Below, piece after piece: positions 9,648 to 61,737 of a stretch of DNA of 64,000 nt. A model generated the notes under the pieces. The model made no database searches. It saw only the letters and a program-made list of their open reading frames with translations, and was not told the DNA's origin. Within the stretch, counting starts at the first letter, position 1, and the number at the start of each line of letters is the position of its first letter. Made by a program: the position numbers and the translations under genes. This DNA comes from Zasmidium citrigriseum (lineage: Eukaryota; Ascomycota; Dothideomycetes; Mycosphaerellales; Mycosphaerellaceae): NCBI GenBank assembly GCA_002786025.1, contig NHNW01000036.1:248001-312000 (forward strand), given 5' to 3'.

Positions 9648-12600
9648 CTATGGCTCGGGACGCTCCTCGCCGCGGATCCTCGACTTCGCCTCTAATGCCT
9701 TCAACGCTAGCTCCTCTGCCTCCTTCAACCGTCCTAGGTTCCGGTACGTCGATGCAAGGTTAGCCATACCTGCTAGCGTGTCGGGATGCTCCTCGCCGAG
9801 CATCCTCAACCTCGCCTCTACCACTTTCTCCTCTAGCACCTCTGCCTCCTTCCACCGTCCTTGGTTCCGGTACGTCGACGCGAGGTTAGCCATACCTGTC
9901 ATCGTGTCAGGATGCTCCTCGCCGAGCGTCCTCGATCTCGCCTCGAGCACCTTCTCCTCTAGCACCTCTGCCTCCTTCCATCGTCCTTGGTTCTGGTACG
10001 TCGACGCGAGGTTAGACATACTTATCAGGGTGTCGGGGTGATGGTTCCCTAGCGTTGCCTGCATCTTCTTCAACACTTGGGTAAGTAGCTCCTCCGCCTC
10101 CTTCCACCGTCCTTGACGCCGGTAGGTGTCTGCAACCTTACCCATACTTAATAGGGTGTCGGGATGATCGCCCCCTAGCATCACCTGCATCCTCTCGAGG
10201 ACTCTAGAGAGTAGCTCCTCCGCCCGCTCCCACCGTTCTTGACTATTCAAAACATCTGCTACCATCACAATGCTACGTAAACTTTCGATATTGTCGTCTC
10301 CGAATATCGATACTCTTGCCCGCATAGACTCCGTAGCCATCCACTCTGCTTCGGTCAACTGACCCTTAAGATATAGATACCATGCTGCATTGTACATTAC
10401 TAATGACCAACGTAATAGAGCGTTCTCGTGCAGCGGTCTGTAGTGCATAGCGGATTGTACGTGCGGCAAAAGTGTTTGGCAGATAGACCAGTTCTCGTAA
10501 TCTCCGGTTGGAAAAGCCCGACTAAGGCGGAGTAGAAAGCGGTCTCGGAAAACGTCTATCTCCTGCCGATTGTACAGCCAGATTTGGGTTGCGTCCTGTA
10601 CCAATCGATGCATTTCCCAAGTTGATGGATCTGTTGTGGCGGAGATGAAACAAAAGTCACGTAGCATCGCAATGTCTTCCTCGAACTCGTTGTACAGGAG
10701 GCTAGCACTTTTGTCGTCCGAGACATCTTCCGTGTCTTGCACGAGGATCTCTGGAATAGATCGACGGTCGCAAAAGCTCATGAAGGCGAGGCGGTTAGCG
10801 GCTGACCGTCGGGTCTGGGCAATGTACTCAAATGAGATCTGCCATGTGAGTAGAATCGAACTACGCTCCTTGTCATTTCCTCGATCCAGGAACTGGCCGT
10901 GTCGTAGAAGGCTGGTCTTTGATCGGTCGCTGTTCTCTAGTTCTTGCACGTACCGCTCCACCGAGTACATTGGACGCCTCCGTCGTACAAAGGCTGCTGC
11001 CTGCTTCATTGCAAGTGGGATATATTCGAGCGCCGCAGCTAATGTTTCATGGTCTTCAACATCTTCGTGACCTAGTATCTTTTCCAGGAGTTCCATCGCA
11101 GTACTGTTGTTCATTGGCGGGACCTCGACGATTTGGCTCAGTTGTACTATTCGTCGTGCTTCGCCCTTGCTTCGGGATGTCACAAGTACAGAACCATGGT
11201 CGCAGGAGGGCAGGTAGTCGATAAGCCGTCGTCGGTCCGCCGAGGCAGGCGCCTCTAGCAGAAAGGTAGCGTCGTCGACGTTGTCCAGCACGAGCAGCCA
11301 CCTGCCCTTACTCGGATCGCAGAGCCAGTCATGCAAGAGCTCGAAGATGTTCGCTTGTGGGTCGCGCCTTCCGTAAATCTTGGTCGCGTCTGCTATCTCG
11401 CGCACACCTTGCTCAAAGCGCGCCCTCGTACCCGCGTGCAGCCACAACACCCACGTCTGCGGCGACTCTTCGTGGATGCGGCGTACGAAATCGACGACCA
11501 GCTGGGTCTTGCTGCTCTCGTGTTAGCAGCATTCAATCAAAGTCGATGGTGTAAGAGATGTACCCTGTCCCGCCGAGCCCAATCAATGCGACCCACGCGC
11601 CTGGCGAGTCGAGTTTGACAGAGATTTCATCGCGCAGTGCAGGACGGTCGACGTAGTCTAGGTCAGGGATGAAAGGAATAGTCGATAATGGGCTCGGTGG
11701 CATTTCTGCACGCATATCAGTCTTGACCTTACATGCCAGATGGGATGGGATAACGGGATGCAGCACTTACCCAACGCCTCATAATCACTCATGCCAAAAT
11801 TACCCTCAACATCCTCCAAATCTACTTTCATGCCACTCTTTGCTGCTTGTTCGACAATTTTCTGCAGCATCATTTCGGCCAAAATCCTCGCCCCAGACTC
11901 ATTGAGGTCCGGAACATTGAGGTCCGGAACATGCTCTTGAGGCTCGCTTACATCTGCAGCGATGTCATTCGCCTCGATATCTTCCCATCGCAGGTTTGTC
12001 TCACTATGGTCGCCAGTGCGTGAGGATGGCTCACTACCAGCAGACATCTCTGCCGGGTCGACCGAGCTTTCAGGCGTTCTACCGGCGTCGCTGAGAGTCT
12101 CATCGAGCTGTGGAGCCAAAAGACTCAGAGCAATGTCAGTGAGGTGCATCGCAATGTGTTCTAGCAGCCGTTGCTTTCGCATTCCCGGCGCTTCCCCCTT
12201 TACGCCATCAGGCTGCGACTCGCACAACGGACAAGCATCGGCATCTCGAGGAACTCCACTCTTCCACTTGTGCCGAATGAAGGAATCTAGTTTGGGTCTG
12301 TCGAAATGATGCTCACTAGTCAAATGGGTTTCGTAGTCAATGCGCCGATGGAAAAGAAGGAGCCCATCAACGAATTGCCCACCAGATTCCATAGCATTGG
12401 TCGCCTTGTCACGTGGAAACTCGCACTTGTCGCAGTACCACCACAAGAGGTGAATGTTTTGGGTCCAGTCTTCTCCGTGCCTTTCGTCCATGTGGTCCGA
12501 CCACGGTTTAAAACCATGGAAGAAGTTGCCTGAATTTGCGCACTTTTCAGATAGACACACATACACTTGGAGGTCCTTATCAACATGAGCCCTATGACAG

Positions 12601-13799
12601 GCAAGTTAGATCAGATTCTAACGGCGGGGGAAAGGGACATCTCACTGCCAATTTTGATCGGAACACGACGCTTCTTGTGGGACGAGACAGTACGGACATT
12701 GGAAGTGAGATTCGTCCTCTTTGTATGGTTGAGGCTTGGGCGGATATTTCGTTTTCGTCTCTTCCTGGAGCTTCTGGGATTTGCCCATAACACTCGCAGA
12801 AGTTTTCGAATACCCGCGACTGACACGGAAGTCAAGGTCGGTTCGGGGTTTGGATGCTAGTGATTCAGGTATATGCGATTTCCCAGGGCCTTGCTCGGCC
12901 GGTGGGGCTGCTTGGAACTTGCGTGGAGCGGCAGATATGTTCGACGAGTGGGCAAAAGCGCTTTGTTCTGGTTGAAGTTGCCTTTCCAGCGCGGCTGTGT
13001 TCTCGTCATAGACCGGCTTGCGCTTTGCAGCGCGGTCACGACGATGGAGAAGGCCGTCTCTGCGAACCCTAAGTTGCTTGCTTAGCTGGTCCGTCAGAGT
13101 CGATCGTGCCGAGCTTAACATTCTTATGCTTAGCCACTTTCGACACAGAGTCTCGAACGCATCGCTATCCCAACGAACAGGTGTCGGCGAAGTCGTTGAC
13201 GGCTTGCGCACGATGCGTGCAAGATTGAGCAGTTCTCGCAATATTACAACTATTTCTCCCCACGGCTTGGCTCCCAACTTGTTGATAGTCTCTTCTGTCG
13301 AGTCAAGGCCGTCAAGTTCTTCGAGATGGAGGATTTTCTTGAATTGATCCCGGTCCGAGGACGCTGTTTCGTGATCTCAGGATACTGATCGTCTGGAGCA
13401 TATAGCAGAGTAACGACGCTCACCGTAGTTCAAATTACTCAGAATAACCTCCAGAAGAGCGATGAATGTGCGCGCAACGTCCTCGAAATCTGTAAGCAGT
13501 GCATCGAGTCGATGCTTTGGCTCTGCGCAGGCACCCGAGTATTGAATCCAGATTTCCAGCCTGTGCCTGAGCCTTTCAACGCAGAGACGTACTTTCTCGT
13601 CGCTTTCGTCCTCGATGAAGCGACGGAAGGCATCCCTACATTGCAGTGTAAGATCATAGATCGTCCGCGGATTTTCGCTTGTTGTATCTGGCGGTCTCCC
13701 ATGAGACTGCGGAGCCTGTCCGGAAATCTGATAGTGAGCGTCCTGCTGGGCCATCGCCGCGCGCAACTTCTCTGGGTCTGCTGTTGGAAAGAAACTCAT
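9648..13799 (-). CDS. NLR-like protein: acuF-type C2H2 fingers, NB-ARC NTPase, TPR repeats
   Basis: Five minus-strand exons (13424-13799, 12646-13375, 11771-12591, 11564-11705, 9648-11511) give 1,310 aa with all phases consistent. Order: a helical N-terminal region (about 1-170); Cys/His-rich zinc-finger block (about 350-510, starting FQCPYCLVPQEASC and containing YVCLSEKCANSGNFF and WYCDKCEFPRDK) of the type found in fungal acuF-like proteins; an acidic linker; an NB-ARC NTPase with P-loop GLGGTGKTQ (685-693, split by the last intron), Walker B WLLVLDNVDD and a YIPLAMKQAAAF motif (plant-type GLPLA); then C-terminal kinesin-light-chain-type TPRs of 42 residues. STAND/NLR proteins of this kind act as switches in fungal heterokaryon incompatibility and self/non-self recognition. 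It shares a 389-bp divergent promoter region with the S8-protease gene. The last repeat breaks off at EERPEP and stop, see findings. Confidence 0.9.
9655..10032. repeat. three tandem 126-bp units encoding 42-aa TPRs
   Basis: Units starting at 9655, 9781 and 9907 have an exact 126-bp period and are highly alike at DNA level (shared blocks such as gatgctcctcgccgag and ggtacgtcgacgcgaggtta between the two later units). On the minus strand they encode the final TPRs (GEEHPDT...MANLASTYRNQGRWKEAE). High DNA identity between repeats, not merely protein similarity, suggests recent exchange between units, as described for fungal NLR repeat arrays. Confidence 0.85.
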
Positions 13800-14188
13800 G
13801 TTTGCGGTCCAACGCGCTGGTGCCCGCGGCTTGAATGGTAAGCGGTAGTTGAGGAGAAGAATGGAGAGCGTTGGTGTGGAGAGAACTTGACGTGGAAGGG
13901 CTGACGGAAGAAGGCCGCACAAGCCCAGGGCTTACGTACAAGTGGCACAATCATGCATGTCGTGCCATACAAAGCGCCACTATCATTGGTTACAATCTGT
14001 GATCGCACATATATGGAAGATGCATTCTGCAGCCAGCTGCTCTTTGGGCACTCCAGCTGCCGCCGTGGGCATGCATGGGCATGCACCCCCTTCACGTGGA
14101 CGGCTGACTGATTTGAAGGCACACGTATGTCCGAGGACCCTTACCTGTTGTCCAGACTCTTTCCCTCCATCCCTTCAAATTCGCAGCC
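13800..14188. promoter_or_regulatory. shared divergent promoter region of NLR and protease genes
   Basis: These 389 bp separate two start codons pointing apart. They hold two GCATGC palindromes at 14069-14074 and 14079-14084, spaced by one helical turn, a CACGTG E-box at 14093-14098, a catgcatg palindrome at 13952-13959, and a pyrimidine-rich tract just before the protease ATG. Shared control of both genes is inferred from layout; the protein binding these sites is unknown. Confidence 0.5.
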
Positions 14189-16790
14189 ATGGACCATGGT
14201 GTCGAGCTGCTGACCTTTGCACTGACTATCACTTTTCGTCGACTTGGCTCATTGTCTGGCGGCACTGAATTCGGGTTCTTCTCCGTCCTGAAAGTCAAGC
14301 TGCTAAGATTGAAAGATGTTCTGCCGAATTTGTCCAGCGCAGGCCAGCCTTGTCCTGAGAGCCTGCAAGCAAAGATCATGCGGGTTGTGGGAGCCTACGA
14401 CGTCTTGATTGACGACCAAATAAAGGCCGACCTACCGCGCGCCAGAGTTCCTGCGGGCGAAAGAGCGAAGCTCGATCTTCTGTACCAAGTTACTAAGGAC
14501 GAAGCCCAAGCCGCCATGTACATCTGTCTCCGTGGCATCGACTTCGAGAAGCCTTATGCCAATTTGTTGCTCGACCATCTGGAGGTCTTGCTACAATACA
14601 CCGGTACCGGCAACATCAGTCCTCCGAGTCCCGTTATTGGACCTTCAGAGACAGCCAATATGAAGAGAGGGGACGCGAGCAAATTCGAAGTCTATACTCT
14701 CTTCAAAAGGTGGTACGAAGAGACATGTCCAGAACCCCAGCGACACGAGCTGAGATTGTTCCTCGGCTCTACGGAATTGAGCAAGGAAATTTTGCGCGTA
14801 TTTTGCTCAAACCAGCACCAGCGAAGCGAGCAGCGATGGCGTGCTGTCGACTTCTCACAACAGATGTCGAGAGAAAACCCACTAGGAAACCCCGACCCCA
14901 ATGGCTGCCATCTTTGTCGTGACTTGCACAGCACTTCACGATGGCCCAGCCGCGCGATTACATTTCATTATAACAGGAGCGTAGTATGGTCTGCTGGTCA
15001 AGGTGAACAGGTCAAACATCCTATTCCGGAGTTTCAAACGCTGGAGGTTTGGTTGCGAGCAGCCAACCACGACCCGACACTACGAGAATGCGCTGCATTT
15101 ATTTCCTGCGTCCTCGTACAGTCGCTGCTTTCGCTGTGCGGTACTCATTGGCTGCCCGCTGCCTGGGACTTACAGACGATATGGATACACAAAACCCCTG
15201 ACGGCTCTTCTGACGGCTACCAGACCCCGTACGCCGCATGTGATCTCCAGCAAGACGCTGCGAATGAGCAGGACCTTGCGCCTCATCCCTACTTCATGAT
15301 CAAGTTCGCAGTCCTGCTGTTGAAGATTGCTTTACCGGATGCCAGCTTTCATGAGAGGGATATCCTAGATGTCTGCGACCTCGATGACATCGTCCGCGAC
15401 CTCGACGAAGAAATCAGCAGATTTCTGTATCATGACGGCAAAGAAGTAAGCAATGGTCTCAGGCAAGCGGTGAAAATTTGCCAGAACTGGGGATTAACGC
15501 TCGGAAGCACGGATGCCACGCGCGAGTCGCTTATCAAGGAGATTCTTGGGTATCTCCAAGATGGTCTGTCCGCCGATAGCATCTACGAAAGATGTACAAG
15601 ATCATGGGGTCCCATGTCACAACTTGAGAATCGAAGTTTGATACCAGAGGATAGTTCGGGCACCAACAGAAAATACTATGATTTCTTCGATGGGAGCGAA
15701 AGCAAGGAAGATGCCAGAGGAGACGCGTGAGTGCTACTTGGTCTGGGAAAGCATTTGGTGCATTGAACTGACTACCTCTAAGTGCATCCAAAGACTGGTT
15801 GGCGATGATGGAAACAATGCGCAGAAACGTCTTCAGTACCCCTCCAGGGAATTCCAGACCAAGAGTCGCAGTACTAGACACTGGATTTGACCTCCGCGGC
15901 CCACATTTGGAAGACCAAATTGACCGAGTACAAGAGTGCAGGACGTGGATTGGACATGAAACAAACACGGAAGGTTGCACGATCAAGTTCCAGGACGAGG
16001 ATGGTCATGGCACATCCTGTGTGAGTGCATTGCTCCTAGTCTCGCCCGACTGCGATATATTCGTCGCACGAGTTTTTACCAGTCGAAACCCGATGCAAGA
16101 CGGACGTCCGCCAGCAGTCACTGCTCAGGGAGTAGCAAATGTAAGCATCCCAACACATTTTCGATCTCGCAACGTGCTAACTGATGTCACAAGGCGATCA
16201 GATATGCTGTGAACGTTTGGAAAGTCCACGCCATTTCCTTTTCAGCCGGGTTGGACGAAGACGTTCCATTTGTAGCGAGCGCTATCCTTTACGCCTACGA
16301 CAAACGTGTTCCGATCTTCGCAGCTGCCGCCAACTGCGGTCGCAACAAAGATGCAGCCTGGCCAGCATCTCATCTTAATACAATCTGTGTGTTTGCTTGT
16401 TCAGGCATGGGCACTCCATCTGCGAGTAATCCAAGTACCAGAGATGTTGGACTTCACTTCGCAGCTCTTGGAGAGCATGTACCGGTCTGGTCTAACCAAG
16501 TCGATGAGAACGGGGACTCAATACAGGTGCGCAAATCCGGTTCATCTTTCGCGACCCCTATCGTCACCGGTATCGCTACTTTGATCATGCAGGTTGTCCT
16601 CGATCGCGGTACCCCTGATGCGGATGAAACCCTGGACAGATTGAGGGACCCGCGTAGACTGGCTCGAGTCCTAGAAGAGATGCAAAGGGAATCGGGAGAG
16701 TACAAGTACCTCAGACCGTGGTTTTTCTTCATACAACGCAAGGACAACTATTTGTTCGAAAAAATCCGTGAACTTGTGTATCGTCGATAA
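14189..16790 (+). CDS. HET-Q2-like protein with C-terminal subtilisin (S8) protease domain
   Basis: Three exons (14189-15726, 15783-16140, 16194-16790) encode 830 aa. The C-terminal ~300 residues are a subtilase with all four active-site motifs: Asp545 in VAVLDTG, His588 in DGHGTS, oxyanion Asn679 in AAANCG, and Ser750 in GSSFATP. There is no signal peptide, so it works inside the cell, unlike secreted subtilisins. The first ~510 residues are a mostly helical region I cannot assign firmly; it resembles the N-terminal regions of fungal incompatibility-type proteins and contains LEVLLQYTG, closely matched by LEIWIQYSG in the neighbouring NLR. The gene diverges from the NLR and converges on the gasdermin-like gene 29 bp away. 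In Podospora, the subtilisin-like HET-Q2 cleaves the gasdermin HET-Q1 to trigger cell death; this is the obvious model. Confidence 0.9.
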
Positions 16791-16819
16791 TGAACATCTA
16801 CAGCCAGGTATTTCGTACA

Positions 16820-17620
16820 TCAACTAGAACTTCCCGTCTCCTCTACTCTCGAGCTCTCATCGAATTCTACTACCTCAAACACTTCGTCTTCGTTAGCCTG
16901 TTCTGCATCATCGAACAGAGCGTACTTCGTGAACGGAGTCTCGGCGACTGCGGCCTTGATGCTCTTGCGAATGCGAAGGAGCCGATATGCGAGAAGAAAT
17001 GGATGGGCTATGTTGCTGGTTGTGTCACTTCCTGTTGACTTGCTGTGACCAACTTCGGGACCAACAGAAACCGGAACGCCAACTCCAGTTCCATCCACCC
17101 CGATCTTAAATCGCCTCTCTGTTTTGCCTTCTCGGTGTATCTCAACGGTGGCATCTTCCGCGACCATAAGCCCCGCCACAAGGTAAACGTCAGTTCCTCG
17201 AGGCCAGGGCTTTGCGACGTTGGCGACTCTCGGATCCTCGCAGGCCTGTATTAGCTCGGGCGTTGATGGGTTGAACCAGGTAGTCTTCATTTCCCTGCAG
17301 TGGACCTTCAGACCATATGCGCGACGGTTTCCGATCTCAATGCCGCCGCCAATGCCTTGTATCGACGGTATGTCCGCCCAAAGCTTAACCTCGTGCGAAT
17401 TCTCCTCGGTACTGTTGTGCACCCAGTCCGTTTTGACAATCTCCTGAGGATCAGTCGCCGTAAGGAAAGCGCCTTTGTTGAGTATCATTTCAGGATTAGG
17501 AAGGTTGGAGCGCTTGTCATGCTTGATGATGGCTCCAAGTTTGATTTGGCCGTCGGGCTTGATCCCAAAGTGTGGAAGCAGCATAAACGACGGCACTTGT
17601 GCATCCAGCGGATTTGGCAT
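16820..17620 (-). CDS. fungal gasdermin-like pore-forming protein (HET-Q1/RCD-1 type)
   Basis: A single exon from the first ATG gives 266 aa. The run VPSFMLLPHFGI, then LGAIIKHDKRSNLPNPE, MKTTWFNPS, DVYLVAGLMVAEDATV, PFLLAYRLLRIRK and TKYALFDD is the conserved layout, as I recognise it, of fungal gasdermin-family proteins (RCD-1, HET-Q1). The short length and the acidic C-terminal tail of about 30-36 residues fit that family, in which a protease removes a ~5-kDa tail to free the pore-forming part. Phe230 and Phe236 are possible cut points, by analogy to cleavage after a Phe in HET-Q1. The frame stays open 13 codons upstream with a plausible FLLKSFVT segment but no ATG, so an upstream exon (acceptor at 17631-17632) may supply the true N-terminus. 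It is tail-to-tail with the S8-protease gene. Confidence 0.82.
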   Translation of the reverse strand: MPNPLDAQVPSFMLLPHFGIKPDGQIKLGAIIKHDKRSNLPNPEMILNKGAFLTATDPQEIVKTDWVHNSTEENSHEVKLWADIPSIQGIGGGIEIGNRRAYGLKVHCREMKTTWFNPSTPELIQACEDPRVANVAKPWPRGTDVYLVAGLMVAEDATVEIHREGKTERRFKIGVDGTGVGVPVSVGPEVGHSKSTGSDTTSNIAHPFLLAYRLLRIRKSIKAAVAETPFTKYALFDDAEQANEDEVFEVVEFDESSRVEETGSSS

Positions 17621-18102: not shown

Positions 18103-18489
18103 CTGGGGTTTTCAAAACCTCGTGCCCACCCCGCTCAGGGCAGCCAAAAACCTCGGCCCAGAACTTTGCTAGTAAATCACACCAAAACTTCTGGACTCTC
18201 CTTCATTTTCTCCCAACCTTCATAATTTCCTTGTTGCTTAATATATCGGTGTTATATACTATTATAGGTGTTAGTAGCCTATAGGCCGCCGGTTACCTAA
18301 CCTCCGGGCGTAATATACCTACCGCCGCCGCCCTCGCCGCCGCTAAAGAGTACCCCCTTCGACTACCTCGCTATTAGATTACTGCTCTTCGAGAGCGTTT
18401 TAGTTAAGGCTAGAGTAGCCGTAATATCCGCCTAGTAACTAGTATTAGTAGAAGGTATATAGATAAGATAAGAAAGAATATATACGAGA

Positions 18490-19460
18490 CTAGAGAGGTA
18501 TATCTATCTACTAGCTTAAAGAATAGCCGTCTACGCCTTCTACTTCCTATTAAAGAGCAATCCTTAAAGATATTCCTTAATAATAACCCTACGGCCTACT
18601 TCGATAAGATATTATAGTATCTATATAATAAATATAAGAAGGTAGTTAGTACTACGACTCTTTATAGGGTTCTAGGCTCTATAGGCTAGATAAGGAAGAA
18701 GGCGACGAAGAAGGCGAGAGAGGCTAACCCTAAGGCGCGTACCCTCTTTAAACTTAGACAACTCGATATAGATTCTAATAGGGTTGTCTATATAGACGAG
18801 AGTGCTTCTAACGAGCGTATAGGCTAGCGTAAATATAGATAGTTACCGAAGGGTGTTAACTACTCTAAGAAGACTTCTATACACCGCTCTAAGCGATAGT
18901 CGATATTACTAGCGATAATAAAGGATAGATACCTTAAAGGCACCCTTATATACTAAGGATCTATTAACGGAGCCCGCTTTAAAGAGTAGTTTAAGTTTAC
19001 TATCTTACTACAGCTATAACTAAACTCGATTATTATAATAGATAATACGTCTATCTATAAACGAGACAACTACGTAGCTAGCTTAGCCGCTTTCTACGGG
19101 TATTAGGTTATCTATCTACCGCCCTACTTACCTAATTTCAACCCTATTAAGCAATCCTTCTTAGTATTAAAGGTATAGATTAAGAAGTATTAGATGTTGT
19201 ACAAGGCGTTTAAGACCTTTAGAGACTTCTTGTAATATATAATAATAGAGGTTAGTAGTAAGGACGCCGAGAGGTAGTTTCGGCGTAGTAGGTATAGGCT
19301 ATAGGTTAGAAAGTCTAAGGGGTTAGGCTTAGAGGGTATATCGATGTTAGGCTTTAGCTTTCGGAGGTTCTATACAACGCAATACTATACTAAATTTAAT
19401 AATATAAGTTAGCGGAGTGTCTATTAGATATGTAGAATCGCACTATATTAGACTAGTTAC
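18490..19460 (+). pseudogene. Tc1/mariner-type DDE transposase, destroyed by RIP
   Basis: Read on the plus strand with TAG/TAA standing for lost Gln or Trp codons, the order is a helix-turn-helix part (TTLYRVLGSIGWTRKKATK, with one stop at W), the first Asp in VVYIDESASNERIG, the second in IIIIDNTSIYKRDNY, and VIYLPPYLPNFNPIKQSF, clearly the LPPYSPDxNPIE signature with the last catalytic Glu now Lys (G-to-A). Stops are scattered throughout, so no protein is made. Limits are approximate. Confidence 0.8.
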
Positions 19461-19760
19461 AAAATAATAATGTAGTAGCAGTATAGTAGGTACCTATCGA
19501 TAGATAGGGGTATCTAGCTTATCTGCTAAGACCTTAGATTTCCTCCTTATAGATCCCCTATCTATAAAGCCGGCTTAGATTCTTTAGAAGCTTAATAACC
19601 TTCGACCCTTAATCGACCGCTAATAATACTATTATACGATAGGAAAATTATATACGGAAGGTCTATACACTTTATACTCTAATATATCTAAAGGGCTAAG
19701 AAAAAAAATAACTTAGTAGTAAGTTATAGTATAGTAAGGGTAGTAAATCCAGCTAGCTTG

Positions 19761-21470
19761 TAAGCTCTAAACATCGGCTTTAAATAAAGCGCTCTTTATA
19801 ACGCTAGACTACCTACTATACCCTCTCGTATTGTCCGCCCTTTAGCCTATATTGCTTCTAGTAGTCTAGAGATACCTTTCCGATTTGCTATAAGCTTAGA
19901 TCGTCGCTATTAAATGCTACCCTTATAGCCTAGATATCCCCTACCTTGTTCTTCTAGTCTAGTCGCTCTATAAGCTAGTAGAAGAAGCGCTCTCGTTACT
20001 CCTTCGTATTAGGTACGGAAACTTAAGAACTACGCGGTAGGCTATCGTTAGCGACGGTAAGGCCGCTACTACCGCTAGTAGCGCTCCTTAGGCGAGTCTC
20101 GAGTACGTTAACGACCTTAACTTAGACTAGACCGCCGCCGTTAGCTCTACGTCCGTTCTTCGTTAATTATAAGCCGCTAGCGGTACGTAGGTTCCTTATT
20201 ATACTATAAACTAGTTAAGTACTAATCTACGCACCTAGATCTTAGATTATAAGGGTACCCCTTCTAATACTAGTTGCCTATATAGATATAAGCTCGGCGA
20301 GGATAGGGTAGTAATATTTAGCCGTATCTACACCCTAATACTAGTAAATACCCTCTGCCTTACTATTATAGTAAGTAGGGTTAGTATAGCGCTATCGAGT
20401 AATAAGTTAGAGCCGCTAGTTACTAGTCTCGTTAAGCTCTCGCTCTACTACTTCGATATCGTCTAGTACCTCTTCGTTAGTAGTCCTTATAGTAGATCTA
20501 GGTACCTAGCCGCTCGCTCTTAGTGTCGATCTTAGTACTTAAGAGCTTAGAAGGTTACGCCTTCGTTAATTACTTACTAGCGTACGAAGGTCTATCTACC
20601 TCTTAGGTTTAGGTAGCTACTCTACCTAATAGACGACGTCTATAAAGAGATCTTTCTTTCCTTCGCTATACTACCTTACTAGCTACTTTATAGCTACCGT
20701 CTAGTACTTATCGTCTATATAGCTAGTAAATCTAGTCGTAGGGGTATCGCTCTTCCTTAGCTTTAAGAATCTATATAATATCGTAAACCTAACTAGCCTA
20801 TATACCTCGATCTTATAGTCCTAGTTCTCGGCTACTTCCTTAGTAATAAAGTCGTCTATCTATTACTAAAACTCCGTCTAGATAGTAGTATTAGTGCTCT
20901 TAATATTAGAGTTGTATATAGTACCGAGCCGCTCTCGCTTCTAATAGATATACTACTAAGATTTATAACGAAATATATCCTCTTCTTTATAAAGACTACT
21001 TTCGTCTATTAATACCCCTTTAGTCTTATTTATAGGAGATCTACGCCTTCGCTTAACCGCCGTTGTATCTTCTTATAAATGTCGCTTTCGGCTAGCCTAT
21101 AATTACGTTAATAACTAAGATATAGAAACTTCTAAGGTTAGCTCTACGTCTAATATATCGATAGGCTCGCGGTCCTATTGTGCGTCTCTTATCGGCGCGT
21201 AACTATTATTAATATCTTCTTCTTTATCTTTATCGTCTATAGGTTCCTTATCTTAGTGCTCGAATAGCTCGAAAGGTAGTAATAAAGGTATATTAGGCTT
21301 AGGTTCGGGTTTAGGCTACTTCTTCGAAGGACTACGATTTAATAGGTTATAAGGGTCGAGGGCACGTTCCGTTAGCTTATAGGTACGTGTAGATTAACGA
21401 ACAATACTAGTATTTAACTACCCTACTATTGTATAGGTTATAGCGTATATTATTAGTTAAAGAAGGTAGA
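19761..21470 (-). pseudogene. possible second reading frame of the same element, opposite strand
   Basis: Beyond the transposase the minus strand reads as a long charged sequence when TAG/TAA are taken as RIP-made stops, for example KRERLGTIYNSNIKST and VYRLVRFTILYRFLKLRKS. The plus strand does not give a comparable reading. I do not recognise the product. It could be an accessory gene of the transposon, a captured host piece, or chance. Limits are rough. Confidence 0.35.
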
Positions 21471-21618
21471 TTAAAGGAATGTTTTAGGACGCGCTAAACG
21501 CGTGTGGTCGGATTTTGGTGTACGGGCTACCTATTTAGGAACTCCGGAATTCGGTCGATCCCAGCCCGCGTTTTTCTCAATCCCGCGGGGTGGGCACGAG
21601 GTTTTGAAATCTTCAATA

Positions 21619-22286
21619 ACATCGCGAATGGCGGTGGCGCACATTGAGCTCTGCAATCCCGTCCTTCGTGGCACCCACATTGTCTGCGAGGCCGCGAAGC
21701 TGCTGCAACATTTTGAGCAACATGTCTGGCACACGGCACAGTTGCAGGAGCTGTCCTCAACCAGTGTGATCAGTGTCTTGGTCACAGGTTGATTTTGCTC
21801 TTCAGCGAACCGCAGCCGCTCGCGATTCTGCGAGCTGGAGCTTGGCTTGCATATGTCCAGTCCCAGGTGCAGGACCTGCCACGCCCATTTCGCCCTTGCC
21901 CTCCTTCACTATCTCTGCCATCTCTTCCATCCCTCGGTTCCCTCCCGTCCGGTCCATCGCGGCAGGGCGTCGCGCCGCGGCGTCTAGCTGGAATGAGTCG
22001 ATGAGGCAGGCTTCTCAATGAGGTGAGGAGGGAGACGATCGGGCGTCACGCCCGCCTTTGAAGGCGGCGGGGACTCAGCCACCTCTCGAATACCAAAGGA
22101 TTCTCTGCGCTTCGAACGGGTGCACTTTGTCGTCGAGCACAGCCTTCGTTTGCCCTGCACACCGTAGCGTGGATCGCACTACTATATCAACACAAGGAAC
22201 AGGTCCTCAAAGGGAAGACCACTAAGCGGCGGTGCAAGCACTCACAGAAATATTAACTCTCAAAAACTTAACTAAAAACCCTAACC
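21619..22286. other. intergenic next to transposon
   Basis: About 670 bp of normal composition. Overlapping short frames exist on both strands, including a Cys-rich one (minus, 21531-21785) that partly runs into the transposon end, but none has a family feature. I support no gene here. Confidence 0.4.
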
Positions 22287-25435: not shown

Positions 25436-26590
25436 ATGGCCGAATCCTTGGAAGGTGCTGCGGCCAAGCAGCCTTGGATCGAAACGCCCTTGGTATGGTC
25501 CAAACGCTTGTCCGAGTTATCAGGATAGTAAGTATTCCATCTCTTCATCGACTATGAGGAATGACCTAACGTCGTGTACAGCAACATCTACCTGAAGCTT
25601 GAGAACAACCAGCCATCCGGATCATTCAAAAGCCGCGGTATGGCTAATCTCATTCGTGCCCATCTTCCAAAGGGCTCTATGAATGGCAGTGTCGATGGTC
25701 AAGAGACTCTCAAGAAGACGCACTTCTTCTGCAGCTCAGGCGGAAACGCAGGTCTTGGCTGTGTCTCTGCCGCAGTCACATACGGCTGTCCGGCGACCAT
25801 CGTTGTCCCGAATTCGACATCCGACTACATGATTGCCAAGATAAAGACCGCTGGAGCCACGGCAGTCCTCCAGACTGGAGCATCATGGTTCGAAGCGGAC
25901 GAATATCTCCGGAACCAGGTCCTGCCAGAAGCCCGAGAGCAAGGGCAGACGGCGATATACGTCCCTCCTTTCGATCACCCTGCCGTTTGGGCTGGTAACT
26001 CGACCGTCGTTGACGACATTGTTCGACAACTTCCTACCGTGGATAAGCACTACCCAATTCACGGAGCTCCCAAGACTGAACGGCCTGAACTACCAGATGC
26101 CATCATCTGTAGCGTTGGCGGCGGCGGTCTTCTGAACGGCATCATGCAGGGGCTTGAGAGACACTCAGCATGGGACAGCGCAACCAAGCCGAAAGTCCTG
26201 GCGATGGAGACTGTTGGAGCAGATGCTCTCTCCAAATCTGTACAGCAAGGAGAGCTGATCACATTGCCTGCCATAACGAGCGTTGCTACTACACTTGGGG
26301 CTCGAACAGTATCTGAGCAGGCATTCAAGTATGCCATGAACAAGGACCGTATAACATGTGCCACGCTCACAGACAAGGAGACTGTGGAGGCTTGCAAGCG
26401 ATTTGCGGATGACGAGCGACTTTTGGTTGAACCAGCGTGCGCAGTATCGTTGGCAGTGCTGTACACAGGCAAGCTCAAAACGTTCCTTCCCGACTTAAGA
26501 CCGGGCAGTCGTGTCGTTGTGATTGTTTGCGGAGGCAGCGGGCTGTCGATTGAGATTTTGAACAAATACATCAAGGATTATCTAGACTAG
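25436..26590 (+). CDS. PLP-dependent L-serine/threonine dehydratase (catabolic type)
   Basis: Two exons (25436-25527, 25582-26590) encode 366 aa, the usual length of cytosolic Cha1-type enzymes. PSGSFKSRG carries the Lys that binds pyridoxal phosphate, SSGGNAGLG the substrate loop, and CSVGGGGLLNG the phosphate-binding glycine loop; IVCGGSG closes the site. There is no C-terminal ACT-type regulatory domain, so it is the catabolic rather than the isoleucine-biosynthetic form. The reaction is L-serine or L-threonine (or a hydroxy-aspartate) to the 2-oxo acid plus ammonia. Its neighbours suggest that the oxo acid is passed to a dehydrogenase or aldolase. Confidence 0.9.
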
Positions 26591-34838: not shown

Positions 34839-35036
34839 TGTTATTGTTGTTGTTTGAAAAGAGCGTGGGTGTAGTTGAAAGAACGAATGAAAATAACGAA
34901 GATGTTAACAGACAGTAGATGGACAGAAGAAGCTGGAAAGAAGCATTCGCCGCGCGCGAGTACACGGCCGCCTTTAGTACACCGTACCTACTTCGCGATC
35001 AACAGCATCTAGTGTCACACGACTCACAAGGCTGCA

Positions 35037-38000
35037 GGGGATTGGTAACCGGCCATTGAGTGATTGTTATTTGGGCATTAATCTCGATATTACCGTCAGG
35101 GGACGGTAACAGCCTGTTCCCAATAATTAGCCATTTCCCCATAGTAAATCGTCGTCTTGGCAGGACACGTCGTCGTCGCGTCCCACCTACGTATCTTCCT
35201 TCTCTTTAATATACCGTTATATTAACGCTCCGCCCTTATAGCGCCTACTACTATACCTACCCTCTCTCTAGTACTTTCTACTACTTCTTAAGCCTAATAT
35301 AAGTAATTAATCTTATCCTTATAGTAGTACTTCGGCGATAAACTAGGTAACCTTTAAGTAAGCGACTTCTTTTAAGATATTAGCTTCTTCGACGATAAGG
35401 GCGATAAGAGCGATACTAGTAACTCTAGATTTAATAAGCTAGCGTTAGAGGACGTTATTATCGATAGACTTAGTAATATCCTTAGTAATTAAGAGCTAGA
35501 TAGTAATAAGGAAGAGGAGCTAGAGTAGCTAGCTAGCTAGCTCGATATCGAAGTAATTACTACTAGAGCTACCGCTATAATAGCTAGCTATAATAAAGGT
35601 AATAAGGACGTACCCTTTAAGGTAGAAGATAAGGTACCTATAGACCGTCTATTAGTAGATCTACCTTCTAGCGAGACGTATAGTTTAATAGAGCGTACCT
35701 ATAACGCTATATAGCTCTAGGCTACTAAATACGGATTTACGGTAGTATATCGCTCTAGTAATAAGTCGACGAGGCCTAAGTTAGCTAGTAAATAGATTAG
35801 CCGCCTTATTAACTATAATTAAGGGCGTCTACCTAAGCGCCGTAATAAGAGGAAGCGGCTAGGCGCTATCTTAGGCCGAGTTAATTATTAATAGCGCTAT
35901 ATAATCCGTACTTATAACTCGAAGAATCTAGACGGCTAGTAGATAATAGCTAGCTCTCGAGGATAGTACAATTACTACTATTACGACTCTAGCGTCTTTA
36001 TAATCTACTAGCGGCGGTAGCGGCTATAGTAGAAATTTAAGAAGGAGGTACTAGATAACTTAAATACTAACGTAAGCGCTTAGTCGTCGTTATTAAGGCT
36101 ATAAGAGCGATATAGTAGTTATAAGTTAATTACGTATACCCCTTTTAACGAATCGGCTAGATTCCTTTCTAACTTTATATATAGGCTTATAGACTATCGA
36201 GGATATCTATAATATTCGTAGGCTCGTAAGACGACTTATATAAGGCGATATAACTACTCCGGATACCCTTAAGAAGATTCTTAAAGATAATAACTACCTA
36301 TACTAGCTAGAGAAGGTAGAAAGGGGGCCTAATAAGGGTACTATCGATAAGCTACTTATTCTTAACCCTTAGATAATAGAGCTCTATAAACTATACCCGG
36401 ACTATATTATCGCGGACAATACCTATAAGATAAACTAGTATAATAGGCTATTATTTAATCTTTCTACGGGTACTAGCTATAGCGATATAATACCCCTTAG
36501 GTACTATATAATAGGTAAAGAGGATAAAGAGGCGTTTACGTAGATTTTCGAGTAGTTTAAGTAACTTTATAGCTATTACTTACTACCGCTACCTAACCTC
36601 TAGGTTATAGATCGAGATAGAGAGTATATTAACGCCCTTAATAGGATCTTTCCGAATACGCCGTACCTAATTTACGCCTAGTATATATTTAAGAACGTCT
36701 AAGCGTAGGCGAGGAAGCTTATAAAGTAGAAGCCGGTTTATAAGAATAGTAAGCTCTTATACTATAAGGATTTAGACGACTACGCTACCTTTATAGACCT
36801 CTTTAGAGCTACTATATATACTAAATCGATAGACGAGTTTAATAAGTATAATCTCGAGATAGCTACTAGTAAGAACCCTTACTATTAGACGCTCTAGTAG
36901 TATATTAATCGTAAATACTAGCCTTATAGAGACCGGCTTATTTACTACTTCTAGTAGTACTAATTCGCTTTCTATAGGTAAGTAGTTACCTTATAGGTTA
37001 AAGGAGCGTACTTAACGATAAAGAAGTAGATTACTAGTAAGCGCTATAATATCCTTTTACTCTTCTTAAAGCTCGTCCCTTAGTAGAAGCTTAAGTATAC
37101 TAAAATTAAGGCTTATATAGGCCGTAAGAGACTTAAGATCCCCTAGTAGTACCGCTATAAGCTATATTAGAAGGTTAATAAGGAAATCTATCGTAAGCCT
37201 ATCTATATAGCTAAGTAGTAGTATAACTATACTATCGACGAGTTAAAAGAGGTTAATAATAGTAAACTACGCTCTATCTATAACGGCTAGTTTCGTAAGG
37301 TATAGGGGATTATCTATAAGTATTAGATTATAGATATTCTTAAGTAAGATAGTAGTAACTTCGCCTTCGAGCTCGATTACTTCGATAGGTACTAGTATAT
37401 CGACAAATCGGCGGCGCTAGTCTACCGAATAGTCTATCTTAATTATACCCTCGAGCCTACTACCCTACTAAATAATCGCTACGGAAGAGCTACCGTACGA
37501 GCGTCTACTTAATACTATAGCTAAGCTAATACTTATAACCCTTCTAGCTTCGAATATTACGATCTTAATTATCTAGCTAGCTAGCTAGTAAGGGGTAGGC
37601 GCGGTAGTATAAGAGGTAGATAGGGTAGATAGAGTAGAAGAGGTAGAGCGTAGTAATCTATATTATTATTATAACCTTATATATAACCTACCTAAGTCTA
37701 TATACCCTCGTAATTAACGTAGTAATAACTCTAGTAGTTATTAGGCTAGCCGCTCGCTCTACGGCTAACGATATTATCTATAGAGGCGGTATTTAGATAA
37801 GCCTATATAGATCTACCCCCCTCTAGGTAGTAGTAGTTCTATAACCTTTAGAGACTAGTAATAGGACCCCCTAGGGTACTCTCTATAGCTCTACCCCCTT
37901 CTACTACTCTAGTATAGCGTTAGTAGTATTACTAGGGGGTACTAGCGGAGTAGTTAAGGTTCGAGGAGCTAGTCCTTTACTTACGGTAGTACTAATAGGC

Positions 38001-38519
38001 CGCCTATAGTAATTAATACTAACGTAAGTAACGCGACGAGCCTATAACGCGAGAATTTTACGATAATTAATAGTAGTTTCTCGGTCTCTAATTAGCTAAT
38101 ACTAGAAAGGGCGGCAAACGACGATTTAAGCTAGTTTAAGTATTACGAAGGTTATAGTAAGCCGCTATAAGCTAGCTCTAGAAAGCTAGCTAGATTTACG
38201 ACTAGATTGTACTTATAATACTATAACCTAACGGTTATATATTTAATACATTATAAGAGGCTATTATATATATTATTATTACCTTCCGCTCTTATATAAA
38301 TATTATCTTAATATATATTATTATAATAGTATAGGTTAGTAGGGGAAATCTAGCTTTAGATACTACTTACGACGAGGAATTAAGGATTTAGCTTTAAGTG
38401 CGTGGCAGCTACGCGATTATGCAACTTTGTATAAGGATTACAGCGAAATTTGCATGTTGACGTAGATATCGAGATCAATGCCCAAATAACGAAAGGTCAA
38501 TGGCCGGTTACCAATCCCC
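35037..38519 (+). mobile_element. RIP-mutated Mutator-like element (MULE), 3,483 bp
   Basis: The ends are inverted repeats of about 62 bp (35037-35098 and 38458-38519): the outer 23 bp starting GGGGATTGGTAACCGGCCAT are identical, followed by a six-base mismatch and further matching blocks GTTATTTGGGCATT and ATCTCGATAT. The insertion has a perfect 9-bp target duplication. From about 35,190 to 38,400 CA and TG dinucleotides are nearly missing, so every frame is full of TAG/TAA, while the outer 120-150 bp at each end are normal. It lies between the CFEM gene and a nuclear-type protein gene. Confidence 0.9.
35650..37560 (+). pseudogene. MULE transposase, destroyed by RIP
   Basis: Reading the plus strand with TAG/TAA as former Gln codons restores a typical MULE transposase order. 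There is a FAR1-like N-terminal part (KYGFTVVYRSSNKSTRPKLA), then YIIADNTYKINQYNRLLFN (the first catalytic Asp region, normally DxTYKTN), LQVIDRDREYINALNRIFPN with the second Asp, and YAQYIFKNVQAQARKLI. Only CAA/CAG-type codons and some Trp are lost, which shows that C-to-T change in CpA caused the decay. Limits are approximate. Confidence 0.8.
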
Positions 38520-38528
38520 AAGGCTGCA

Positions 38529-38996
38529 TAAAATTCTCCTAACACTTACCATTTTCATGCTGATGCAGGCGCCTCGGTGGAAGCTACAAGAGCGCGCTCA
38601 TCTCCTTGGTGCCGCTGGCTTGGAGTAAGAACGAATCCAGACTCGGCACCGTGTTCGCAAAATCGTGGAGGCCGTTTGCGTTGGCCGAAAGAGGTGATGG
38701 CGGACGTTGTGGTCACGGGGTAGCGTGAGCCGATCTTCATCGGTCGAGTCAAGCCGAACTTTCGGCTCCTTTTTTAGGAGAATTTCATATTTCTCCTGTC
38801 AGCGCTTGGAAGAGACGGGATCAATGGTTTCGAAATGCTTTCAGCAGAGTCCGCTCTCCTGCTCAGCGAGCGCAACAATGCACCTCTCGTCGCTGTCGGC
38901 CCATTCAACGAGACGTCGCCACCGAGGAGATCCTGAGCATTGCATTGAGCACGACTTTCCAACACATTCACAGATCCTCGTACAACTGCCATTCCA
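38529..38996. other. intergenic
   Basis: About 470 bp between the right end of the MULE and the 3' end of the next gene. Composition is normal, so RIP has not spread here. Nothing coding recognised. Confidence 0.4.
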
Positions 38997-47985: not shown

Positions 47986-49764
47986 TTAACGCTTCACGCA
48001 GATGCCACCATTACCGATGAGCCGATCTTTCAATCCCATGCTTTCCGTTCTGACACCAAGCCAGTGCACAGGGACTTTGTCGATCACTTGCTTTTGGCCA
48101 GCTTCTCGGACGTCGACCATTCTTTCTGTAAAGGATCGAGAGGAAGATTCGGTCTTGATGCGCTCAAGAAGGGTATCTGGTTGCCAGGCAGGCCTTGCAA
48201 GGGATCTTCCGGTGATGGCGATGTCTTGTGCTATTTGCAAGATTGGATCTTCCGCTGTGGGTTGATCGACTGGACGCACAAAGCCCATGAGCATGACGTT
48301 CATTTTGCAATCGAAGAAAGTTGCGTCACCGAAATCGTGGATGAGGTATACTGATACTGATCGTTTCTCCACTACGCTTGCTTGGATGTCCTTCAGAGGC
48401 GCAACTGTGGCCACAGCAGGGTGCCATACTTCGTAAAGTTCGTTCGTGAACAAGTCCTCCTTGAGTTTCGTCGGAGGAGTCACCTTCGCCCAGGCTGCGT
48501 AAACGCCCGATAGTCGCAGCAGTGTATCTTCAGCCACGTTTCCAAGGTTTGCCGTTGGCATGCCGAAGTTCCTTTGACTTCTCCTTGTACCTCGCATGAC
48601 TTTGCTCGTGAACTGGATTGGGAAAGGGTGCCGCGCGCCATCTTCGTCACCGACGAGTCTCATATCTTCACTAGACTCACCTTGGGCCGGCTGATGAGAA
48701 AGCTCTCGCGTTTGTGCGTATGTCTCGTTGACTTTGTTGATCTTCCCTGGGGCTCCACTACTATCGTAAGCGCTCGTAGCTGCTGCTTGTGTTAGACCGC
48801 CGAGCTGATAAGGCTGAACTGTGTTCTGCACGGCAGTCTTCACAGGCTGCAAGGCGCCAGTGGCTGCAGCGTTGGCCGCGTTGTTTGCAACAACAGAGCC
48901 GATTCTGATACCAAGCTCGAGTGGCAGACTTCTTAGACTTGCACCTCGAAGCATGCTGGGATCGGTGGACATCGAAGCGTATCGGAAGACCGGCGAGGGA
49001 CACAACACCTTCCGGCCATCACAGAGGACGATTCTCAAATAGCCGTCCTCGGCCACATGAGGGATTCGGACAATATTCGTTTCGCAAGGACGATGATTCC
49101 GAATATGCTTGACATCTTTGGCCTTCTTGAGAAATTTGTTGATGTCGCGTTGCCATGCTCGCTCATCGGCTTTCGGCAAAGCATCAGCAGTGGAGAAGGT
49201 GGTCGGTGTCACATCGATCCAGGCAGATCTCGAGCCAAGAGTGCCTATCGCTAGTCCAGTCTTGCCGCTGAAGCCCCTTTTCTGCAGCCATAGCTTGCGG
49301 TCAGTCGGAAGCGCTTGATCGGAGAAGACAGTAATGGCGACACTTGTCGTAGGGCCGCGATAGTAGACCAGTCCGATTGAGTGCCGAAGAACGGAGTAAT
49401 GTCTTGTTGTTTCGTACGGGTGAGAGACAAGACCTCCAGCGAAATAAACCGCCTCGTTCAATGCCGTCCCTAAAGCAGCCTTTACTTTCGATGGCTTTTC
49501 GCCACCATCCGACTCAAGGACTTCATCAGGTGCTTCAGAGACAGTATTGGATGCCACCGGCTCATCATCAAGATGAAGCCTCACGAGCTGTTCATCAAAT
49601 TCGTCGATGATCTGGCCTTCTTGAATGGAATCTATCCTCTCAGCTTCGTACGGAGGTGGCTGGGATTTTGGCGGATGTCGCGCTTCACCCATGATCCTGT
49701 CCAAGGCATCCTTTTGATCCGTCTTGAGAGGCCGACCTCCTGGTACAGGTTTCCGTTGGATCAT
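47986..49764 (-). CDS. protein with C-terminal riboflavin-kinase-like domain
   Basis: Single exon, 592 aa. About residues 380-500 match the flavokinase beta-barrel: FTSKVMRGTRRSQRNFGMPT with ANLG (the PTAN motif binding the nucleotide and Mg), RLSGVYAAWAKV, then SVSVYLIHDFGD and FDCKMNVMLMGFVRP. The usual catalytic-Glu segment is altered, so activity is uncertain. Ahead of it lies a conserved-looking domain (about 85-230; FAGGLVSHPYETTRHYSVLR, LVYYRGPTTSVAITVFSD) seen in fungal proteins sometimes labelled LipA/NB-ARC, and an Ala-rich linker. At nearly three times the size of a plain riboflavin kinase, it is probably not the housekeeping FMN1. Confidence 0.75.
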   Translation of the reverse strand: MIQRKPVPGGRPLKTDQKDALDRIMGEARHPPKSQPPPYEAERIDSIQEGQIIDEFDEQLVRLHLDDEPVASNTVSEAPDEVLESDGGEKPSKVKAALGTALNEAVYFAGGLVSHPYETTRHYSVLRHSIGLVYYRGPTTSVAITVFSDQALPTDRKLWLQKRGFSGKTGLAIGTLGSRSAWIDVTPTTFSTADALPKADERAWQRDINKFLKKAKDVKHIRNHRPCETNIVRIPHVAEDGYLRIVLCDGRKVLCPSPVFRYASMSTDPSMLRGASLRSLPLELGIRIGSVVANNAANAAATGALQPVKTAVQNTVQPYQLGGLTQAAATSAYDSSGAPGKINKVNETYAQTRELSHQPAQGESSEDMRLVGDEDGARHPFPIQFTSKVMRGTRRSQRNFGMPTANLGNVAEDTLLRLSGVYAAWAKVTPPTKLKEDLFTNELYEVWHPAVATVAPLKDIQASVVEKRSVSVYLIHDFGDATFFDCKMNVMLMGFVRPVDQPTAEDPILQIAQDIAITGRSLARPAWQPDTLLERIKTESSSRSFTERMVDVREAGQKQVIDKVPVHWLGVRTESMGLKDRLIGNGGICVKR

Positions 49765-60227: not shown

Positions 60228-61737
60228 ATGTCAACCATGAAGGACATTTGGAGCGGCAGTATATCATTGAATGGAAAACGCAGTCTAGATGGTATGTATA
60301 TTTCTGGTTCTGACAAGACACATATTGACCTTGATGCCAGGCATCTCAATTTGCACACAATCCGAACACCCACCATGCCTTCAACCACAAGCATCTCTGC
60401 GGTTCCTATCTGTGGTCGAGACTTCGCGCATTCCGTTGTACATGAGCCTTGGAAGGCCTCTCCAGGTTGAGACCACTTGCGAGGAAACCGAGTCTTGGTT
60501 CTCCAGCATCCTACTTGAAAGTCAGACCGACTCAGCAGAAAGTTCGGCACGTTGGTGGCAACATGCTGCGACTGACTCTCTATTGGGTGTCCTTGTGTCT
60601 GTTACGGAACCCGTACTGGCTCCAAGCAGCAACACATCGCCTCGGGTGACCGAGCTTCTGTTCTACGCGGCTAAAGATGAAGCAAGTACTACCACTCGGC
60701 CATTAACGCCGCCAGAATCTTCGCCGAGCCCAGATGCTTTTTCAGACAACATATTCTCCATTCGAGTCTTTGCACTGCCGTTGTCTTCTCAGTTACTGCA
60801 CAAAGCAGATCTAACACCCCCGGTATCTCCTGAAGTGGACCCTCAGCACATTGAACCGACGTTCCTTCCTCATGGACATGCCATCTCAACGGAATCAGGA
60901 GAAGTCATCAACAGGCCGCCGGTACGGAAGCGAAAAGACATCAATGATGCGTTCGACGAAGCAACCGAAAGACGGCGTAAGGCTCGACGAAAGGGAGGTG
61001 AAAGTGTGGCCGCCGCCGCTGCAGGGCATGTGAAGTCTGAGCAATCAATGCCAACGCTCAAACATCGTCGATCTGTCAGCAACGCTCAAATCCCTCTTCA
61101 GAGCAGGCCACTCTCAAGATCATCCAGCGTAGCTTCGACCAAGCCTACAGGATTGCGAGAACCTTCAGTCTCGGGAGTCTCGAAGCCATCTGGATTGTCC
61201 CGAGCACAGAGCATCTCAGGCGCGCCAGATGTCCAGGCCGAAGTGACCATCGAACAGAAGAACAAAGATCTGGTATCAAAGATGGTCATGGCAGGAATGC
61301 GACTGTACGGTCTCCATCAATCCAAATCCCGCAAGTCACGAGTGAACTCTGCAGCTCCTTCACCGGCAGTGGATCTTAGCTTCGAAGAGATCGAAGCAGA
61401 CAGAAGGAACGATGAGGAGTTCAAGCTCATCTACCACCAAGTCTACAAAGGCACTTGCTTCGCCATGCGTCAGCACATGCCTAGCATATCGCTGCAGCCG
61501 CATACGGAGGCCTTACGGGAGACTGTCGACAGACTTTTAGCAGTGTTCTGCAACGATCCGCTAACCATGGAAGGAGAAATGCCGGGAGAGGAGTTCACGC
61601 CTGGCGGTAGGAAGGCCTTTGGATCTTCGGCTCTGCAGGTTTCGAATCAGAACCCTTTCATTCAGGCAGCTGTTGGAGGCGACAGTACGACGACTACACC
61701 AAGTATGAATCCATCCAGAGCTTCTGGAAGAGTCTGA
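60228..61737 (+). CDS. Sld7-like DNA replication regulator
   Basis: Two exons (60228-60291, 60341-61737) encode 486 aa. The C-terminal ~130 residues match the Sld7 C-terminal domain: NKDLVSKMVMAGMRLYGL, EFKLIYHQVYKGTCFAMRQH and ETVDRLLAVFCNDPL. The N-terminal part begins MSTMKDIWSGSISLNGKRSL with a domain resembling the Sld7 N-terminus, joined by a long basic Ser-rich linker with nuclear-localisation-like KRKDIND and RRRKARRKGG. Sld7 works with Sld3 in firing replication origins. ATG 60102 would add 42 residues but would leave only 21 bp from the release-factor ATG, so the later one is preferred. Confidence 0.85.

Follow-up and report, generated by a model that had tools for sequence, protein, structure and literature searches.

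A gasdermin gene adjoining a DUF7580-S8 protease gene in Zasmidium citrigriseum: a probable regulated-cell-death module with a recurrent divergent neighbor

Results

A fungal gasdermin gene and a DUF7580-S8 protease gene lie tail to tail in the 64,000-nucleotide stretch analyzed here (hereafter the window; C79:248001-312000, loci being named by contig), and they probably form a self-contained regulated-cell-death module in which the protease would cut the tail-inhibited gasdermin and the resulting pore would kill the cell. This reading draws on the gene structures, the predicted gasdermin fold, the intact catalytic triad, the adjacency of the two genes, paralogous pairs elsewhere in the genome and the repeated divergent pairing of DUF7580 genes with a second type of gene. 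Proteolytic activation of the gasdermin by the adjacent protease is the best explanation of these observations, which come from the DNA sequence of one genome (a 44.4-Mb, 148-contig assembly) and from exon models made by hand. The features concerned are:

9648..13799, reverse strand: third gene, its product consisting in order of a helical segment, C2H2-type zinc fingers, NB-ARC and TPR repeats (tentative exon model)
9655..10243, reverse strand: TPR repeat units of 126 bp with 75-86% matches
13800..14188, no strand: region of 389 bp separating the two divergently placed start codons, a putative shared promoter
14189..16790, forward strand: three-exon gene for the 830-aa DUF7580-S8 protease with D545/H588/S750
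14696..15481, forward strand: DUF7580 domain (Pfam), residues 170-431, perhaps kinase-like (weak likeness)
15859..16616, forward strand: S8 catalytic domain, spanning the second intron (16141-16193)
16791..16819, no strand: gap of 29 bp between the two convergent stop codons
16820..17620, reverse strand: fungal gasdermin, 266 aa, single exon, stop included (profile and predicted fold)
16823..16912, reverse strand: acidic low-confidence tail, residues 237-266, the proposed inhibitory segment
16913..16921, reverse strand: A234-L235-F236, directly N-terminal to the acidic tail, a candidate protease site

The 266-residue protein is a gasdermin with an acidic tail

The gasdermin open reading frame runs from an ATG at 17620 to a stop ending at 16820. 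As a single query, its product gave a best PDB match of only E 0.14, no match at E<=1 in a protein-database search and none in a Pfam scan. A paralogue was found in the same genome at E 1.3e-23, and a profile of the window gasdermin and two paralogues matched RCD-1-2 (5.2e-11), RCD-1-1 (7.8e-11) and HET-Q1 (2.4e-5) in the PDB; a further profile search matched the HET-Q1 pore structure 9uv9 at 1.2e-6, and 50 relatives were found. Among solved structures, the RCD-1 pore was the nearest and the best match to the predicted fold. A single-sequence structure model (pLDDT 34.8) was left out of the fold search. As the paralogue, the RCD-1 and HET-Q1 profile matches, the relatives and the predicted fold all agree, we consider it settled, at the level of sequence and structural model, that the protein is a fungal gasdermin with the pore-forming fold. 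An earlier note on this DNA had proposed as much from the letters alone and had named RCD-1, HET-Q1 and a fold comparison as the means of checking; the identification held, with the three-paralogue profile giving the matches that the single sequence did not give at significant levels, and with a gasdermin fold, best matched by the RCD-1 pore, being found rather than none.

The short acidic tail described in that note is real, with 13 D/E against 2 K/R in the C-terminal 40 residues. Immediately before it, an alignment of 56 sequences contains a cluster A-[F/L]-L (A in 50/56, then F or L in 51/56 and L in 50/56), at whose third column the window gasdermin has F, i.e., L-F where most relatives have F-L. 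HET-Q1 is reportedly cut near F238 (accessible portion of PMC12881547). Placing the cut of the window protein at its A-L-F cluster is a guess from sequence, and the cluster could instead mark the end of the fold.

The adjacent gene encodes an intact S8 protease with a DUF7580 half

The protease model (ATG at 14189; introns 15727-15782, GTGAGT..AAG, and 16141-16193, GTAAGC..AAG; stop ending at 16790) was made by hand and chosen for the best splice signals among nine open variants. Judged from its motifs, VLDTG, DGHGT and GSSFATP, the catalytic triad (D545, H588, S750) is intact, and the 830-aa model reproduces the residue numbering given previously. In a Pfam scan, each of the last two exons matched S8 (E 1.1e-4 and 1e-8); the first matched DUF7580 (PF24476) at E 2.8e-14 and nothing else at E<=1. 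The DUF7580 half is perhaps kinase-like: a six-sequence DUF7580 profile gave E 0.0024 for a molecule named FD15, 0.21-0.35 for IRAK4 and 0.35-0.77 for plainly unrelated chains, and in one relative, a HeLo protein, the stretches matched by DUF7580 and Pkinase overlap. DUF7580-S8 proteins are common, both domains occurring together in 29 of 60 matches of a protein search.

The tail-to-tail arrangement stands as first described, with the S8 protease identified by profile and the gasdermin by profile and predicted fold, and with bases 16791-16819 separating the stops. According to the portions of the published surveys available to us, ~63% of fungal gasdermin genes adjoin S8 genes and ~80% are near some protease, and about one third of ~1500 proteases show 18 architectures between them (PMC10197012); kinase-like domains are joined to some protease domains (PMC12881547). 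Given that published clustering and the abundance of DUF7580-S8 proteins, the pair in the window is a typical case of a known pair type, which is the usual state for fungal gasdermins. RIP-like indices are absent from it (TA/AT 0.56-0.59). Since both genes sit in one assembly, it is fair to suppose that the protease would have to be kept inactive.

DUF7580 genes recur beside divergent helical/zinc-finger genes

On the other side of the protease gene, a third gene is read in the opposite direction; neither it nor the DUF7580 half had been mentioned in the earlier note. Its P-loop, GLGGTG/KTQ, runs across an intron. When the P-loop exon was joined, the NB-ARC match was 2.7e-8 (33.8 bits against a cut-off of 23.5); without that exon it was 1.8e-4, below the cut-off. 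TPR_12 was matched at 5e-59. The gene thereby has the NB-ARC domain with repeats that characterizes fungal NLRs. It may also belong to the gasdermin-protease unit, because a comparison of loci within the genome suggests pairing.

For this comparison, DUF7580 places were set against matches to the N-termini of the C69 neighbor and the C65a gene. The eight DUF7580 places listed comprise six ordinary DUF7580 genes and two HeLo-type genes with kinase-like regions (C116, C61), and the ten loci listed for the N-terminus queries include six with a helical part plus zinc fingers. Both sets of six fall at the same loci, C79 (the window), C64, C69, C65 (twice) and C54, and at 6/6 the two genes are divergent, with start-to-start distances in that order of 389, 503, 265, 433, 444 and 403 bp that depend on the chosen start codons. 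By hand arithmetic, six plus six sites scattered at random over 44 Mb would be expected to yield about 0.001 pairs within 500 bp; the six pairs are not independent, since the C64 and C69 loci look, from their sequences, like duplicates of one another (identity of 45-48% in S8, 39% in gasdermin and 34% in the helical part).

Which loci enter the set of six varies with the query. Two places at E<=0.01 were returned for the helical exon of C64 and one for the zinc-finger exon of the window; a search with the C54 exon gave C65a at 5e-14 and C69 no better than E 1, and a single DUF7580 protein retrieved 2/6 DUF7580 genes. The remainder come from the Pfam profile and from the queries with C69 and C65a. 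A module profile was built from the six themselves, and its matches to them hold by construction. Loci dropped from the set were C85 and C94 (transcription-factor-like ORFs without the helical part) and C83 and C80 (a C2H2 ORF and unrelated ORFs without a match to the module profile); the HeLo-type C116 and C61 were not counted, with no helical/zinc-finger match within the surrounding 10 and 9 kb.

What follows the common N-terminus differs between loci: NB-ARC-TPR in the window, S8-gasdermin at C64, patatin in two stretches at C69 (E 2.2e-6 and 2.3e-6), a ubiquitin-like domain at C65b (3.2e-18), a further zinc finger at C65a and no domain in the exon scanned at C54. No S8 or gasdermin match was found at either C65 locus or at C54, where the DUF7580 proteins start with a hydrophobic helix resembling HeLo (Pfam HeLo E 0.03 in 1/3, under the cut-off).

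The homology of the six N-termini was assessed by pairwise hhalign. Ten of the 15 pairs had P<1e-6 and together connect all six loci; the remaining five were C69-C65b (1.9e-5), C79-C69 (2.8e-5), C79-C64 (1.2e-4), C64-C65b (0.0024) and C79-C65b (0.038). This threshold was tightened because controls against nine further proteins from this genome showed 1e-4 to be too lax: 2/18 comparisons with zinc-finger proteins and 0/36 with others had P<1e-4, while 0/54 fell below 1e-6 (lowest 6.9e-6, C69 against a zinc-finger protein). Over its full length, the window N-terminus paired best with C65a (P 7.5e-9) and C54 (6.1e-7), a two-sequence C64+C69 profile matched it at P 4.3e-9 over 400 columns, and its best value against three zinc-finger controls was 0.011. 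When the zinc fingers were removed, the helical parts gave 1.1e-35 for C64-C69, 4.8e-16 for C65a-C65b, 8.2e-13 for C65a-C54 and 1.5e-5 for C69-C54, and the window helical part gave 3.6e-4 at best. On these alignments, a homologous N-terminus is secure or nearly so for five loci; a sixth, the window gene, probably belongs with them but is unproven and the weakest of the set.

Two further readings of the third gene turn on these comparisons. The gasdermin and protease might work as a pair beside an unrelated NB-ARC gene, the co-occurrence of DUF7580 and zinc-finger genes then reflecting duplicated old segments rather than function. We give this a substantial chance, somewhat short of even: the C64 and C69 loci do look like mutual duplicates, and the window NB-ARC gene is remotely similar and unconvincing outside its zinc fingers, yet the six pairs have diverged strongly and are still arranged head to head, 265-503 bp from start to start, the layout is kept even at the three loci lacking S8 and gasdermin matches, and the pairing is constant where the part after the common N-terminus varies. 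Alternatively, and more tentatively, the real unit might be a modular two-gene sensor, consisting of DUF7580 and the helical/zinc-finger protein under one bidirectional promoter, into which exchangeable death effectors (S8 protease with gasdermin, NB-ARC-TPR, patatin lipase) would be plugged. Because the controls weakened the window member, this sensor reading was rated lower and that of an unrelated neighbor higher.

Gasdermin and S8 genes are associated elsewhere in the genome

Searches with three of the four gasdermins as queries (window, C69, C64b) located gasdermin genes in at least four places at E<1e-4 (window, C69, C64a, C64b), the counts being lower bounds. Each of the four is associated with an S8 domain. 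At C69, the gasdermin and a DUF7580-S8 gene are adjacent on the same strand. At C64a, the nearest listed S8 is a DUF7580-S8 gene ~14 kb from the gasdermin, across AT-rich sequence with TA/AT of 2.1-2.3, values which we take to be RIP-like, and the locus looks like a gasdermin-protease pair split by inserted repeats. Further gasdermin-query matches at C84 and C83 (E 0.2-0.3) concern mostly the acidic tail.

At C64b, the two domains share an unbroken 502-codon frame that leads from the oxyanion and serine region of S8 directly into the gasdermin, which ends in a GAT-repeat poly-aspartate tail. Within the junction (L005:4860-5200), the sole match to the donor patterns GTNNG[TA] or GTANG was GTCCGT, so that no usual intron donor is present there. 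The nearest free relatives of this gasdermin (276-277 aa) start at a matching Met, so that the fusion is probably recent. If the modular-sensor reading applied, C64 would have sensor, protease and gasdermin merged in one polypeptide that could free its own pore domain. An Aspergillus felis protein resembling ANK-S8-gasdermin was not counted as proof of fusion, as the usual serine motif was not visible by eye and the gene model is possibly merged.

These associations bear on whether the protease is the activator at all. The nearest solved structure, RCD-1, is described as free of cleavage control (accessible portion of PMC12881547), and death might likewise be triggered in the window system when a different allele is met after cell fusion. 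We think this improbable, given an S8 partner with each of the four gasdermins found, one of them in the same frame, and a long acidic tail that fits protease-controlled gasdermins; the data contain one allele. An ordinary protease of turnover or secretion that lies beside the gasdermin by chance is very improbable: S8 domains are numerous in the genome (21 matches; the five examined lie at C79, C64 and C69), but the recurrent gasdermin-S8 pairing, the frequent union of DUF7580 with S8 and the published clustering figures all speak against it.

Discussion

Proteolytic activation of the gasdermin by its neighbor would proceed as follows. The short acidic C-terminal tail would keep the gasdermin inactive, and the DUF7580-S8 protein would serve as switch as well as cutter, with the subtilisin half restrained in the cytoplasm by the DUF7580 half. 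A trigger, possibly acting with or through the divergent helical/zinc-finger NB-ARC-TPR protein, would release the protease, which would cut the gasdermin at or near A-L-F 234-236; the freed N-terminal domain would then enter the membrane as a pore and the cell would die. The part of sensor or regulator is suggested for the third gene by the recurrent divergent pairing.

The closest known parallel is HET-Q1/HET-Q2 of Podospora anserina, likewise a short-tailed fungal gasdermin (its structure 9uv9 being matched by our profile) with an S8 protease, for which cleavage of HET-Q1 by HET-Q2, with death, is established according to reviews (PMC12881547, in part). In contrast to that system, the window gasdermin and protease sit together in one assembly; the DUF7580 half of the window protease may be a further difference. 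The window gasdermin is only remotely similar to HET-Q1, and strain incompatibility is a property of HET-Q, whereas the window is known from one assembly. RCD-1-1/RCD-1-2 of Neurospora crassa are described as becoming active when two alleles pair, with no cleavage involved (PMC12881547, in part); the window gasdermin differs in being adjoined by a protease gene. Q2L (HET-Q2-like) clusters also contain an S8 protease with a non-catalytic N-terminal half adjoining a gasdermin, and the two- and three-gene clusters in the descriptions available to us do not include a divergent helical/zinc-finger partner of DUF7580. Bacterial gasdermin-protease defense operons use other protease families and, to our knowledge, are without such fungal partner genes.

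Thus, the pair type is known, while in the portions of the literature searched we found no description of the divergent helical/zinc-finger partner or of a gapless S8-gasdermin frame, nor the name DUF7580; Clave 2022 may list the partner. The stimuli that activate the sensors of these fungal pathways are a major open question (PMC12881547, accessible portion). A concrete candidate for such a missing sensor is the partner that is constant beside DUF7580 at six diverged loci while its remainder varies. The fusion of sensor, protease and gasdermin at C64, if transcribed as one, would amount to single-molecule pyroptosis and would show which parts suffice.

Other genes and related loci

The window also holds ordinary neighbours, identified with Pfam, and two AT-rich islands with RIP-like indices:

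1184-2437, amino acid permease
25574-26590, PLP-dependent enzyme
47986-49764, riboflavin kinase
60289-61737, Sld7
18130-21800, AT-rich island, TA/AT about 1.9
35000-38900, AT-rich island, TA/AT about 1.9

Both islands are probably old repeats, and the nearer one (18130-21800) begins some 500 bp past the start of the gasdermin gene.

On contig C64 of the same genome, a single uninterrupted frame of 502 codons (L005:4391-5899) spans both S8 protease and gasdermin, and its tail carries a long aspartate run encoded by a GAT repeat. Among database relatives, P0033 from Fusarium austroafricanum is matched from end to end by the gasdermin profile (E 1.5e-111); its source name, aldehyde dehydrogenase, looks wrong.

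On contig C69, a patatin-like phospholipase is fused to the helical/zinc-finger N-terminus (L015:562-4130), in a gene divergent to the DUF7580-S8 gene of that contig. Three further divergent pairs of DUF7580 and helical/zinc-finger genes were found at L018 and L019 (contig C65) and L020 (contig C54); the 10 kb around each pair contained neither an S8 nor a gasdermin match.

In the third gene of the window, the TPR units (9655-10243) are 126 bp each and 75-86% alike, resembling the homogenised repeats of fungal recognition genes.
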